Source of the DNA: Methanobrevibacter smithii ATCC 35061 | GTDB taxonomy: Archaea > Methanobacteriota > Methanobacteria > Methanobacteriales > Methanobacteriaceae | Reading direction: 5' to 3' | NCBI RefSeq assembly: GCF_000016525.1 | Contig: NC_009515.1 | Location: forward strand, 1,204,501 to 1,268,500 | DNA: 64,000 bases | Program-made: the position numbers and the translations under genes | Shown here: piece by piece, positions 2,987 to 41,981 of the stretch | Position numbering within the stretch: the first letter of the stretch is position 1 | Layout of the letters: every line of letters begins with the position of its first letter | The notes under the pieces: model-generated | Told to the model about the DNA's origin: nothing | The model's input: the letters and a program-made list of their open reading frames with translations, nothing else | Database searches by the model: none

Positions 2987-3316
2987 CAATATTCCTCCAA
3001 AATATAATGAAGAATATTATGATTTTTATAATTAAATAATGTTTCGATGAAAAAATATTAAAAATAACAGATTATTTAAATAAATACCTGTAAAAAGTTA
3101 TTGAATAATAACATAGACTTATTCTAAAAAGCAATGCTGATTAATTATCGATATTTTTCTTAATATCTTTAAACACTACCTAAATAAATTAAAAAAATTA
3201 AAATAAAAATAAAATAATCATAATAATCAAAATAAAAGTTGTTATATTAATTTTTAGTTATTTTAAGAAATATAAATAAATAAAAAAAGGATTTGAAAAA
3301 TATAATCGTGCAAATT
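2987..3316. other. AT-rich intergenic region, no gene seen
   Basis: This 330-base gap lies between the ModE-like gene and the flippase stop. It holds a GGAGG ribosome site near 2993-2998 for the ModE-like gene and an AT-rich stretch (ATTATAAAAATC-like on the minus strand near 3015-3040) that could be its TATA element. T-rich tracts on the minus strand just after the flippase stop could terminate it. I see no ORF or stable RNA. Confidence 0.5.
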
Positions 3317-4873
3317 TTATCTGAATTCGATTTTTTCAACTAAATCCAACATTTTACCCATAACTTTAGACAAAGGTCCGAATTTAGAGGATAATGCTCT
3401 TAAACCCACAATATCCTCCTGAGTGAAGAATCTTACAAGTATTAATGCAAAGAAGTACACAATCATACAGACAATAATTCCTACAAACAACCAGGATGTT
3501 GTCTTAGGCATAATATATGCAACAACACCCATTATCATTGAAGCAGCAAATATTTTAATTACTGAAACTTTAGGGGCTTTAACCTGAGTTAATTTGAATA
3601 CCATATAAAGTATAGGCACCATCATTGCAAAACAGGCTATTGAAGTAGCTGCAGCACCGCCTGCAATACCTAAAGTTGGAACCATAACCCAATTTAAAAC
3701 AGCTGTCAAAATAGCTCCAAATACTAATATGTACATAGGAATTCTCGGATTACCAATACCCTGAACAATACTTGTTGAAATTGAAAATATTGAGTAGAAT
3801 GTCATACCAATAGACAAAATAGCTAATGCAGATGCACCTGCAACATAAGCCGGATTAGTGAAATAAAGCAATCTTAAAATAGGAGCTGCAAAACAAGCCA
3901 ATCCTATACACATTGGAACAACGAACAGTAAAGAAAATTTATATGCTTCAGAAACATATTTTTCCAGTGCTACCTTATTTCCCGCCCTGAATGCCTCAGA
4001 AGAAGCCGGCAAAATTGTTGTAGCTATTGAAATAGAAATCATTAATGGCAATCTGGATATAGGATCAGCAGCTGCAAAAAATCCGACAGCTTCTAAAGCT
4101 AAAAATTTACCCATAACCATAGTACAGATATTGTAAATAAGCATTTCAGCAATAGCTGTAATAATTACAGGAATGGAGAATTTAACTAAAGTAGTAGCCA
4201 AATTCAATTCATCTCTCCAGGTAAACTTAAAATCTACACTGGCAGGAGGAATATATTTTGCCATATGATGTCTGAATATATATACTGCAGAAACCGCTGC
4301 CGCTGCAAAACCTATTACAGTACCCCACAGTGCACCAGTAACAGAAAATCCAATTAAAACAAATGCAGTTGCAAATAAAATCATTCCTAACTGCTCTACA
4401 GCACGAGTATATACAATATACTCCATTTTATATACTCCCTGGAATGCTCCTCTAAAAGCACCGACAATAACACTAAACGGAGTAATAAGACCTACAATCT
4501 GCAGGGGAACAAGTGTTTCCGGTTTTCCCAAATAATCGTAAGCAAGCCATGGAGCAACAATGAAAACCATAATTACTCCAAAGAATATTCCCAGAAATAC
4601 CATGATTTTTAAAGCTACATAAATCGTTTTACGGGCCATGTCATGTTCATTTACAACTTCATATTCTGCAACATACTTAGCTATTGCCGGAGGGAGTCCA
4701 CCAGCAGACAATGTTTGGAATATTCCCTGAAATGGCAAAGTAGTAGCTAAAATACCCCAACTAGTTGGGCCTAAAAGAGCAGCCATTAAAAAACGGTACA
4801 GATACCCTCCAATACGGAAGATAATATTACCTATAAAAATAATAAAGCTACCTCTAACTAACTTATTTGCCAT
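3317..4873 (-). CDS. MOP-superfamily polysaccharide flippase
   Basis: A 518-residue polytopic membrane protein with about 14 hydrophobic segments. The N-terminus (GSFIIFIGNIIFRIGGYLYRFLMAALLGPTSWG) is typical of the polysaccharide-transporter/MurJ-like branch of the MOP superfamily. Such proteins flip lipid-linked glycans across the membrane, here possibly precursors of surface polysaccharide or pseudomurein. The C-terminus (VMGKMLDLVEKIEFR) is amphipathic. It stands alone between long AT-rich spacers. A Wzy-like polymerase is found 9 kb away (13.4 kb), which would be a natural partner, but no glycosyltransferase cluster surrounds either gene. The substrate cannot be told from sequence. Confidence 0.85.
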   Translation of the reverse strand: MANKLVRGSFIIFIGNIIFRIGGYLYRFLMAALLGPTSWGILATTLPFQGIFQTLSAGGLPPAIAKYVAEYEVVNEHDMARKTIYVALKIMVFLGIFFGVIMVFIVAPWLAYDYLGKPETLVPLQIVGLITPFSVIVGAFRGAFQGVYKMEYIVYTRAVEQLGMILFATAFVLIGFSVTGALWGTVIGFAAAAVSAVYIFRHHMAKYIPPASVDFKFTWRDELNLATTLVKFSIPVIITAIAEMLIYNICTMVMGKFLALEAVGFFAAADPISRLPLMISISIATTILPASSEAFRAGNKVALEKYVSEAYKFSLLFVVPMCIGLACFAAPILRLLYFTNPAYVAGASALAILSIGMTFYSIFSISTSIVQGIGNPRIPMYILVFGAILTAVLNWVMVPTLGIAGGAAATSIACFAMMVPILYMVFKLTQVKAPKVSVIKIFAASMIMGVVAYIMPKTTSWLFVGIIVCMIVYFFALILVRFFTQEDIVGLRALSSKFGPLSKVMGKMLDLVEKIEFR

Positions 4874-38597: not shown

Positions 38598-39716
38598 ATG
38601 TCCACTTTACATAAGATGAAAGTTTTAACTGACTCTGCTCAGTACGATTTATGCGACTATGTAAATCATCAAAAATCATCACAAGTAAATCTGCCTGGAA
38701 TATACCATGCTACAGGCCATAATGGATGCCAAATACCATTATTTAAAACACTGCTTACAAATAAATGCAAAAATGACTGTAAATACTGCATTAATCAATC
38801 CAAAAGAACTTTCACCAGATTAGAATTAAAACCTGAAGAACTAGCTAAAGCTTTTATGACCTACTACAATAAAGGTCTTGTAAACGGTTTGTTTTTAAGT
38901 TCAGGTATTGCAGACAATGAAGATTCTACAATGGAAAAAACAATAGAAACCTGCAGATGTCTTAGAAAAGATTACGGTTACGATGATTATATACATCTAA
39001 AAATAGTTCCGGGAGCATCAAAAGATTCCATTAAAAGAGCTATGGCGCTTGCCAACAGAGTCAGTATTAATATTGAAGCCGCTACACCAAGCGGTTTGGC
39101 TGAACTGTCATCTACAAAGGATTATAAAAAAGATATACTGAAAAGATTACATTGGATAGATTCACTTGAAAACAGTTCTACAACATATCCAAATTCTACT
39201 CACACTACACAGTTAATTATCGGTGCAAATAACGAAACAGATAAGGAAATTCTACATAGAATAGATAAAATATACAAGAATTCCAAATTGCACAGTGCAT
39301 ATTACAGTGGATTTACACCGATTGAAGGTACTGAATTTGAAAAAAAAGACAGCTGCAATAGCCAAAGAGTAGGCAGACTTTACAATGCCGACAGTTTATT
39401 AAATGATTATAATTATAAACTTAAAGAATTGGTATTTGAAGATGATGACAGATTATCCCTAAATATTGATCCTAAAATTTTAGCTGCAAGTAATATGAAT
39501 ATATTTCCTGTAGAAATTAATAATGCACCATTTATTGACCTGATAAGAGTTCCAGGTATTGGTGTAAAATCAGCTAAAAAAATAATTTCTATTAGAAAAA
39601 GATATAAGTTTACAAAAAAAGAAGAGTTAAAAAGATTGGGAATAGCTGTAAATAGGGCTGAAAAATACATTAAATTAGATGGAGAATATCAGCCTAGTTT
39701 AGATATCTTCGAATAA
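38598..39716 (+). CDS. Radical SAM protein with C-terminal helix-hairpin-helix (DNA modification/repair type)
   Basis: A 372-residue protein. CKNDCKYCINQ (about residues 55-65) is the CxxxCxxC SAM/4Fe-4S motif. TIM-barrel core follows, with FLSSGIADNEDSTMEKTIE and VSINIEAATPSGLAEL. The C-terminal ~70 residues form a helix-hairpin-helix unit (FIDLIRVPGIGVKSAKKIISIRKRYKFTKKEELKRLGI) able to bind DNA. This architecture fits the putative DNA modification/repair radical SAM family often linked to a uracil-DNA glycosylase gene. No glycosylase gene is adjacent here. Its end overlaps the SegB-like gene by 18 bases in convergent orientation. Confidence 0.85.
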   Translation: MSTLHKMKVLTDSAQYDLCDYVNHQKSSQVNLPGIYHATGHNGCQIPLFKTLLTNKCKNDCKYCINQSKRTFTRLELKPEELAKAFMTYYNKGLVNGLFLSSGIADNEDSTMEKTIETCRCLRKDYGYDDYIHLKIVPGASKDSIKRAMALANRVSINIEAATPSGLAELSSTKDYKKDILKRLHWIDSLENSSTTYPNSTHTTQLIIGANNETDKEILHRIDKIYKNSKLHSAYYSGFTPIEGTEFEKKDSCNSQRVGRLYNADSLLNDYNYKLKELVFEDDDRLSLNIDPKILAASNMNIFPVEINNAPFIDLIRVPGIGVKSAKKIISIRKRYKFTKKEELKRLGIAVNRAEKYIKLDGEYQPSLDIFE

Positions 39717-40436
39717 TTCCCAAATCTCAGGATATTTTTTAGAAACCGCTTCATCAATTAAAACTGAAGCTTCTTTACTAATACTGAATTCAGGTTCTGT
39801 TTTTCTTAAATACCTGAATACTGCTGCAGATTGTGAAGACCATAAAGTTATTCTTGGATTTTTATCAACAATCTCTTTAACTTCAGCCACATTCTCTAAA
39901 ATTTTTTCCTGTTCTTTTTGATCTTGTATGCTTTCTTCATCACTTTCACTGCCAGGTAAGTCTTCGGATGATGTTTCAATATTTTCAGCTTCCTCTTGGT
40001 TGATATCCTCATCAGTATCATCTTCCACAGTATCTATTTGTTGGTTTTCACTAGATTCATCTTCTTCTACAATATTTTCTTGAATATTTTCATCATCTAC
40101 AATATCTTCACTAGATTCCTCTTCTTCACAAGTATCATCATCAAAAGATTTTGTATCTTCTACAATTTTATCACTGGACTCTTCATTTTCAGAAATTTTC
40201 TCCACAATTTTCTCGCTAGATTCATCATTTTCAGAAGTTTCTTCTACAATTTCTTCATTAGAATAATTATCTTCATCAACATTTTCTACAACATCCTCGT
40301 TAGATTCTTCCTGTTTTTCATCTTCACCTAACATGTCTTCTAAAGATACTGCAGAATTACTGTCAAAATCCTCATCATAAAAATCAGGAATTAAAGAATC
40401 TAATCCTTTACCTAAACCTGTTGATTTTTTAGCCAT
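39699..40436 (-). CDS. SegB/ParB-like partner of ParA: GLGKGLDSLIP tail, acidic linker, possible RHH domain
   Basis: A 245-residue protein in three parts. Residues 1-20 carry TGLGKGLDSLIP, the N-terminal ParA-contact motif of bacterial ParB (KGLGKGLxALI). Residues 21-180 are an extremely acidic low-complexity linker of imperfect repeats (SSEKIVEKISENE, SSDKIVEDTK, SSEDIVDDEN). Residues 191-245 form a small ordered domain: strand NPRITLWS, helix SAAVFRYLRK, then SISKEASVLIDEAVSKKYPEIW, a layout compatible with ribbon-helix-helix DNA binding, as in archaeal SegB and plasmid omega/ParG. The ParB nuclease-fold and HTH core are absent. The start codon abuts the ParA stop (TAG then ATG), with GGAGGTAATTAG as ribosome site. 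A DNA partition role is inferred. Confidence 0.7.
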   Translation of the reverse strand: MAKKSTGLGKGLDSLIPDFYDEDFDSNSAVSLEDMLGEDEKQEESNEDVVENVDEDNYSNEEIVEETSENDESSEKIVEKISENEESSDKIVEDTKSFDDDTCEEEESSEDIVDDENIQENIVEEDESSENQQIDTVEDDTDEDINQEEAENIETSSEDLPGSESDEESIQDQKEQEKILENVAEVKEIVDKNPRITLWSSQSAAVFRYLRKTEPEFSISKEASVLIDEAVSKKYPEIWELFEDI

Positions 40437-41213
40437 CTAATTACCTCCATCACGTTCTATAATTTCTTTAGCTAAACTTAGATAAGCTTTTGTACCTGTA
40501 CTTTCAGAATCATAAATTAAACAAGGTTTACCATAACTTGGAGCTTCAGCTAACCTGATATTTCTTGGAATCACAGTATTAAATAACAGATTAGTGCTTC
40601 CAAAATGATTTTTAAGTTCCTTGTAGACATCCTTACTGAGCCTTGTTCTTTTATCATATAATGTCAGAAGAATACCTTTGATTGGAACAGGTGTTCTAAG
40701 CCTCTTTTTAACTAAGTTAATAGTATTAATCAAATCAGCCACACCTTCCAATGCATAATACTCTGCTTGGATAGGTATAAGAACACTGTCAGCTGCAACT
40801 AATGCATTAACAGTTATAACACCTAAAGAAGGAGGTAAATCAATAAAGATATAGTCAAATAAAGGAGGTAAATCCTTAAGTGTTTCCTTTAAAACAATGT
40901 GATAATTTTCCTTTTTACTTAATTCAACCCCTGCTCCACTTAATGAAATATTACTTGGGACAATGAATAAATTCTTGATAAATGTAGGGATTGTTACTTT
41001 TTTAACACTTACATCCCCAATAATTGCATCATAAATAGTATTTTCTAATTTTGTTTTATCAATACCGAAGCTAGTAGTTGCATTACCCTGAGGATCCATA
41101 TCAATTACCAAAACACTTTTACCCATTACAGCTAGTGAAGTTGCTGTATTAACTACAGTTGTAGTCTTTCCACAGCCTCCTTTTTGATTCATTACAGCTA
41201 TTATTTCACTCAT
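40437..41213 (-). CDS. parA: ParA/Soj/SegA-type Walker ATPase
   Basis: A 258-residue partition ATPase. The deviant Walker A motif MNQKGGCGKTTTVVNTATSLA is at residues 8-28, with the signature first Lys. Walker A' (VLVIDMDPQGNATTSFGI) and Walker B (DYIFIDLPPSLGVITVNAL) follow. NTVIPRNIRLAEAPSYGKPCLIYD is the classic Soj C-terminal segment. Such ATPases bind DNA non-specifically as ATP dimers and move cargo held by a centromere-binding partner, here the downstream gene. Only a short leader with AAGGAG (near 41221-41227) separates the start from a 518-base heptad repeat array that may contain the promoter and centromere. Confidence 0.92.
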   Translation of the reverse strand: MSEIIAVMNQKGGCGKTTTVVNTATSLAVMGKSVLVIDMDPQGNATTSFGIDKTKLENTIYDAIIGDVSVKKVTIPTFIKNLFIVPSNISLSGAGVELSKKENYHIVLKETLKDLPPLFDYIFIDLPPSLGVITVNALVAADSVLIPIQAEYYALEGVADLINTINLVKKRLRTPVPIKGILLTLYDKRTRLSKDVYKELKNHFGSTNLLFNTVIPRNIRLAEAPSYGKPCLIYDSESTGTKAYLSLAKEIIERDGGN

Positions 41214-41236
41214 TAATTAATTCTCCTTATAAATGA

Positions 41237-41754
41237 TAAGTTCTAAGTTATTAGAAATAAGTTTTAAGTTATATCTTACAAGAGATAACTTCTAAGTTAT
41301 AACTTAAAAGAAATAACTTTTAACTTTTAAGAAATAAGTTAAAAGAGATAACTTATAGGATATAACTTAAAAGAAATAATTTTTAACTTTTAAGAGATAA
41401 CTTAAAAGAAATAACTTTTAACTTTTAAGAAATAAGTTAAAAGAGATAACTTATAGGATATAACTTAAAAGAAATAACTTTTAACTTTTAAGAGATAACT
41501 TAAAAGAAATAACTTTTAACTTTTAAGAGATAACTTAAAAGAAATAAGTTTTAACTTTTAATTAATAACTTATACCTCATAACTTAAAAGAGATAAGTTT
41601 TAAGTTAAAAGGTTTAATGTATAAGTTATATTTTATAACTTCTATCTTATAAATTCTATGTTTTAAGAAATAAGTTATAAATTATAAAGAATAAGAAATA
41701 AGTTAATAGTTATTAGTTATAACTTATCAGTTATAAGTTATAAGTTATAAATTA
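41237..41754. repeat. Array of 74 contiguous, in-phase 7-bp units next to parA
   Basis: From 41237 every seventh base starts a new unit without one insertion or deletion through 41754 (518 bases, 74 units). By my reading 21 units are TAACTTW and 15 are TAAGTTN, the reverse-complement orientation of the same word; most others are AAAGAAA, AAAGAGA, TAAGAAA or TAAGAGA, with more divergent units toward the right end (e.g. TATCTTA, TAAATTC). Stops occur in all frames, so it is non-coding. An extra weaker unit TAAATGA precedes at 41230. The size, phase and mixed direct/inverted order are what an array of binding sites for a dimeric RHH protein would look like. Confidence 0.95.
41314..41509. repeat. 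Two tandem 98-bp higher-order repeats inside the heptad array
   Basis: The 14-unit blocks 41314-41411 and 41412-41509 are identical by my reading except for one base (TAATTTT versus TAACTTT in the tenth unit). The last five units of the block are present a third time at 41510-41544. This shows growth of the array by recent duplication of multi-heptad blocks. Confidence 0.9.
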
Positions 41755-41981
41755 TAAAAATATTAAAATTAATCAAATATAAATTATTAATATTGTATAA
41801 GTCAAAAGCAATTGCTTTGAATTTTTCTATAAAACTAAGTAGGTATTACTTAAATCCATTATCGAATATTATGACAAATAATAATTTTACATCTAAAAAA
41901 CAGGTCATATCTAAATACAGAAGCAATTCTTAAATTAAAATATTCAAAAAAATAAAGAAAGAGTAGAGAATTAATCTCACT
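41755..41981. other. Spacer between heptad array and trpB2 stop
   Basis: This AT-rich spacer contains AATTTATATTTG on the minus strand near 41775-41785, a possible TATA element for a parA transcript that would include the array. It also has a hairpin CAAAAGCAATTGCTTTG at 41804-41820 that may end the trpB2 transcript. No ORF is seen. Confidence 0.4.

Follow-up and report, generated by a model that had tools for sequence, protein, structure and literature searches.

Introduction

Three described systems come closest to the candidate partition locus considered here, namely SegAB of Sulfolobus, delta/omega of plasmid pSM19035 and the bacterial ParABS (Soj/Spo0J). In Sulfolobus, the SegB site derived by ChIP is TCTAGA-S-TCTAGA, 13 bp in length, and SegB has many scattered sites and compacts DNA (PMC12284271). 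According to a review, SegB wraps DNA as a left-handed superhelix, like omega (PMC9178275). The RHH-ParB of pSM19035 needs at least four contiguous heptads to activate ParA (PMC9499535). For bacterial ParB, residues 1-10 of the Helicobacter protein, MAKNKVLGRG, were seen bound to ParA in a crystal structure, and its Leu7 and Arg9 are reported to be conserved among bacterial ParB (PMC11229316).

SegAB has already been published for Euryarchaeota, including M. thermautotrophicus (PMC5120986), and euryarchaeal cassettes are also found in a 2025 study (PMC12284271). A 2016 review named the appearance of archaeal chromosome centromeres, and their possible clustering, as an outstanding question (PMC5120986). 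In Thermococcus sibiricus, a search with the Sulfolobus motif in the 2025 study gave no SegB site close to segAB; divergent sites were predicted instead (PMC12284271).

Gene organisation and neighbourhood

The window, that is the whole stretch of 64,000 nucleotides analysed, covers positions 1,204,501-1,268,500 of the single-contig genome (1,853,160 bp) of Methanobrevibacter smithii ATCC 35061. At 39699-41757 of the window, parA, segB and a tract of 7 bp repeats (heptads) are found together. The parA open reading frame (40437-41213, minus strand) encodes a Soj-type Walker ATPase of 258 aa that matches Pfam AAA_31 at 4e-62. Its partner, an open reading frame of 245 aa with a C-terminal profile match to SegB, lies on the same strand at 39699-40436, with a gap of 0 bp between the two genes. 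The first-pass annotation had proposed a triad of ParA, partner and adjacent heptads, and the three elements are all real, co-located and conserved. It had also set the locus between trpB2 and a radical SAM gene; a trpB-like PLP enzyme and a radical-SAM gene are indeed among the neighbours, and the biosynthetic surroundings further include ilvD, hisD and a leuA-like gene.

The radical-SAM gene (38598-39716), which also encodes a helix-hairpin-helix, resembles TIGR03916 (putative DNA modification/repair rSAM) with a score below the cut-off. Two other identities of the locus were dropped: a defence system, for which the search gave weak ATPase matches only, and a plasmid or virus source, the relatives there being one viral and one weak plasmid match. 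A SegB relative with 44% identity is encoded on the IMG/VR viral contig L256.

The ParA ATPase and its SegB partner

The ATPase carries the deviant Walker A motif KGGCGKTT. Its top PDB matches were a ParA family protein (8ray, 250 bits) and then Soj (6iub, 212 bits), as opposed to 69 bits for the 220-residue chain of 7dut/7dv3/7dwr, whose PDB name is 'SOJ protein' and which we take to be Sulfolobus SegA. Going by these scores the ATPase is of the bacterial Soj/ParA type and nearer to Soj than to Sulfolobus SegA; in the earlier designation as a Soj/SegA ATPase, the first half holds and the second falls. The PDB ranking implies that the operon joins a bacterial-type ParA to a SegB-type adaptor with a ParB-type tail.

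A profile made from the last 70 residues of the partner retrieved SegB from the PDB (7duv, E 1.2e-10; 7dv2, E 1.3e-10), and a Thermococcus relative of the partner matched Sulfolobus SegB at E 1.6e-11 in a profile search. The partner had been called SegB-like; from these profile matches, at E about 1e-10, it is a true member of the SegB family, by homology and not by mere resemblance. No Pfam or NCBIfam family covers the SegB domain, and the ParB CTPase/HTH domain is absent from the partner, in which searches of the same two collections found no ParB family. With the SegB domain as query, the PDB profile search gave no omega chain at E ≤ 10.

The C-terminal domain (39702-39911, minus strand) is predicted to have a ribbon-helix-helix (RHH) fold because of its sequence homology to Sulfolobus SegB. 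An AF2 monomer of the domain only (pLDDT 78) displayed an extended segment (20-27) followed by helices 28-37 and 48-61, which is the expectation for half an RHH dimer; the top Foldseek match of this model was SegB 7duv, yet at a non-significant E of 2.1. The AF2 model of a full-length SegB relative had a pLDDT of 64, and its fold matches were meaningless. Two tandem SegB domains within one open reading frame of about 320-365 aa were noticed at L234 (G371) and L235 (G385), downstream of ParA with period-7 upstream DNA.

The N-terminus of M. smithii SegB reads MAKKSTGLGKGLDSLIPD and contains the motif LGKGLDSLI at residues 8-16 (40389-40415, minus strand). Its positions L8, G9, G11, L12 and L15 were invariant in an alignment of 15 SegB relatives, and the equivalent tails are ALGRGLEALIS in Thermococcus and RLGRGLDALIP in Archaeoglobaceae. 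The ParB-type ParA-contact motif that had been suggested for the N-terminus is therefore present as LGKGLxxLI and invariant in relatives. A PDB search with the tail peptide returned zero matches, the peptide being too short for such a search. Tail and domain are connected by an acidic, low-complexity linker (39912-40382, minus strand), delimited by the alignment of relatives and a table of length and charge, and of variable length among these. Linker acidity correlated with heptad number over 27 clusters at a rho of about 0.6, a value that carries no correction for phylogeny and was set aside as evidence.

The heptad array

TRF reported the tract at 41227-41757 as a period of 7 with 75.9 copies and 0% indels, uninterrupted for 531 bp; it consists of about 75 contiguous units with the consensus STTATAA. 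As the reverse complement of STTATAA is TTATAAS, the tract may equally be described as palindromic TTATAA hexamers with a single G/C base between them. In the 160 nt upstream of parA, period 7 reached the floor p value (1/301, dinucleotide shuffles) and periods 5, 6 and 8-11 did not; the information in the heptad was 7.7 bits versus 3.1 ± 0.16 in shuffles. Scanning the window with four heptads gave 71 matches, nearly all inside the array, and 0 in five Markov windows. The adjacent heptad array of the first-pass annotation was confirmed by these results. Searches of the organism's own genome found it to be the sole array in 1.85 Mb. Outside it were two isolated triple heptads, both intergenic, at up to 3 mismatches in 22, with the reversed pattern as control giving 3 matches per strand; these triples (L258, about 543-564; L259, about 595-616) may be secondary SegB sites or chance.

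Part of the array, at 41286-41547, is organised in a higher-order unit of 98 bp (14 heptads) that TRF and the repeat families D4/D5 resolve into 2.7 copies with 95% match. The repetition of this unit indicates that the array grew by duplication of whole heptads and that the expansion is recent. Such duplication-driven growth in an AT-rich genome would also be expected of a neutral slippage microsatellite with no protein partner, an explanation that is extremely improbable and largely refuted by conservation across lineages: the S, TT and A columns are preserved at 86-96% in the window's array, not a single indel has entered its 531 bp, and the consensus, found beside segA, is common to separate lineages including Thermococcus.

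Conservation of the locus in archaea

SegB matches were found in 90 of the 96 genomes of the phylum of M. smithii, in 12/100 genomes of the phylum of a Thermococcales genome and in 9/296 genomes of the Archaeoglobaceae phylum. The parA and segB genes were adjacent in all relatives examined with both genes on the fragment, and overlapped by 4 bp in several order-level relatives. In Methanobrevibacter, heptads (about 25-80 units) were located directly upstream of parA in every locus with sufficient upstream sequence. In other families of the Methanobacteriales the 90 nt immediately preceding parA held about 8-10 heptads, and short sets of about 3-16 occurred in most other Methanobacteriota, Thermococcus, Archaeoglobaceae and some Halobacteriota, with about 4-16 in Methanosphaera and about 6-10 in Thermococcus.

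When the 160-nt test was applied to 36 representatives, period 7 was at or near the floor p value in most, and periods 5, 6 and 8-11 were not; the signal upstream of segA included loci of Thermococcus, Archaeoglobaceae and Halobacteriota (f32). At L232 several periods were significant. Six loci failed the period-7 test (L082, L087, L089, L100, L240 and L046); in two of these, L089 and L100, an array is present farther upstream than the region tested. The L046 locus belongs to a Methanothermus-like genome (G049), presumably Methanothermus fervidus, which contains segAB and no heptads upstream of parA. The STTATAA consensus was obtained separately from four groups, the window, 31 Methanobrevibacter, 8 f2/f3 and 9 Thermococcus segments, in each case by phasing the windows on the G/C column.

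Some further variants were noticed. Extra short heptad clusters outside the upstream array, at +1367 in L081, -1350 in L100 and +4812 in L109 relative to the parA start, are reminiscent of the secondary sites that occur in clusters in Sulfolobus. At L229 (G118:C1:474500-482500, 3180-4254), a second, divergent SegAB pair has an upstream repeat of 8 bp, with about 14 octads ending TAAST and with period 8 significant and 7 not; the genes downstream resemble NurA and HerA by eye. The locus L128 comes from a contig labelled 'Bacilli bacterium' that is probably mis-binned, since locus length and match values are identical to those of Methanobrevibacter L130.

Position relative to the probable replication origin

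A match to orc1/cdc6 starts 24 bp past the end of the window. Behind it, upstream of orc1, is an intergenic region of 0.94 kb with about 16% GC and several ORB-like TTTCAAGTGAAA repeats in both orientations (L257:3131-4071, genome about 1,269,630-1,270,570), which is the probable replication origin; ORB repeats in the intergenic region by orc1 are the canonical layout of archaeal origins (PMC4010727). The array is 23 kb from this origin. In 12 of the 14 complete or nearly complete Methanobacteria genomes segB and orc1 were 9-85 kb apart, the exceptions being G038 (310 kb) and G049 (203 kb). Distances to orc1 are not independent within a genus; with one genome per lineage, the proximity gave a Fisher p of 2e-4 over seven lineages, among them the two distant ones, all taken as independent by the test. 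The order and strand of the locus relative to orc1 vary between genera, so the proximity is not simply one frozen gene block.

The short distance to the origin might alternatively mean that the array serves replication, by unwinding or as an origin accessory, or compaction, with SegB as an architectural protein and no ParA-driven partition. Compaction of DNA by Sulfolobus SegB (PMC12284271) agrees with this, as does the strong single-strand folding of the array, although the latter is due to its palindromic repeats. We find this explanation improbable, because a separate, canonical ORB origin is present, the ATPase of the operon is a Soj-type ParA and SegB bears a ParA-contact tail.

The main rival to a centromere is an operator alone, in which the heptads would serve autoregulation of parA-segB, any centromere would be elsewhere or dispersed, and the lengthening in Methanobrevibacter would tighten repression. 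In most cases the array borders directly on the start of parA and an overlap with the parA promoter is unavoidable, the short versions suffice in most lineages, the segAB locus of Thermococcus is not origin-proximal, and the many sites of Sulfolobus SegB are scattered (PMC12284271). Against these observations, about 75 units over 531 bp far exceed the needs of repression, and the array occurs only once in the genome and lies close to the origin in most Methanobacteriales. RHH partition proteins, moreover, commonly use one set of sites for both roles, and an operator without a centromere is in our judgement rather unlikely.

Discussion

The locus is probably the chromosome's own partition locus, with SegB as the candidate centromere-binding protein. 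Since the partner belongs to the SegB family, the operon is of a type already known in Euryarchaeota and is not new. The heptad arrays appear to be: no report of them was found in the open-access literature, which was the scope of that search. The nearby origin, the short heptad sets of other archaea and the shared STTATAA consensus go beyond the first-pass annotation.

The functional reading that we prefer, and regard as probable, is that SegB coats the heptads, which would constitute an origin-proximal centromere and an operator in one, and that its tail activates ParA. The gene pair, the SegB homology, the tail motif and the array, with its conservation, uniqueness and closeness to the origin, are observed; that SegB binds the heptads, at what stoichiometry, that it represses its own operon and activates the ATPase, and that segregation in vivo follows, we infer. 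The steps may be depicted as follows. Neighbouring SegB dimers, roughly one to each 7-bp step, would line up along the tract of roughly 530 bp and coat it. Because only about 13 nt separate the tract from the start codon of parA, bound SegB would also repress parA-segB. Each bound SegB would display its N-terminal LGKGLxxLI tail on the flexible acidic linker, and by analogy such a coated array would present the tails densely towards nucleoid-bound ParA. Contact of the crowded tails with nucleoid-bound ATP-ParA would set off its ATPase activity, and the ParA gradient would carry the replicated origin regions apart.

A wider reading takes the 7-bp step as the general recognition unit of archaeal SegB, used as contiguous STTATAA-like heptads in Euryarchaeota and as two steps in the 13-bp site of Sulfolobus. 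The Methanobrevibacter operator would then have grown, to as many as about 80 units, into a regional centromere close to the origin, on which a mosaic adaptor (bacterial ParB tail and archaeal SegB domain) and a bacterial-type ParA would act. Taken as a whole this is tentative, and we give it somewhat less than even weight. The Thermococcus heptads are candidates for the divergent SegB sites predicted in that genus. The heptads provide a concrete candidate centromere at the sequence level for the Methanobacteriota, including the dominant methanogen of the human gut, and for Thermococcus, and through them the long-open question of how archaea mark their chromosomes for segregation becomes testable.

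SegAB and delta/omega, named as precedents by the first-pass annotation, are apt comparisons; the locus shares SegB homology with the one and contiguous, unspaced heptads upstream of the operon with the other. As in Sulfolobus, the gene of a ParA-type ATPase is directly followed by that of a SegB, here of predicted RHH fold, and the conserved heptads, as candidate sites, occupy the place upstream of segA where SegB sites are found in Sulfolobus. The Sulfolobus site has the same 7-bp step and an S between palindromic hexamers, whereas its letters differ from STTATAA. Sulfolobus also differs in having scattered 13-bp sites and a SegA-like ATPase, in place of one contiguous array near the origin, a Soj-like ATPase and a SegB with a ParB-type LGKGL tail. 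Like the present locus, with its predicted RHH adaptor and candidate operator, the delta/omega system of pSM19035 combines a ParA, an RHH adaptor and contiguous heptads doubling as operator, but it is plasmid-borne, with far fewer heptads and an omega that has no detectable sequence homology to SegB. The omega heptad is WATCACW and differs from STTATAA. With bacterial ParABS the locus shares a Soj-type ATPase, an adaptor with an LGRGL-type N-terminal motif and an origin-proximal candidate site, while the ParB CTPase/HTH domain of those systems is absent here and the site would be a heptad array in place of their 16-bp parS.
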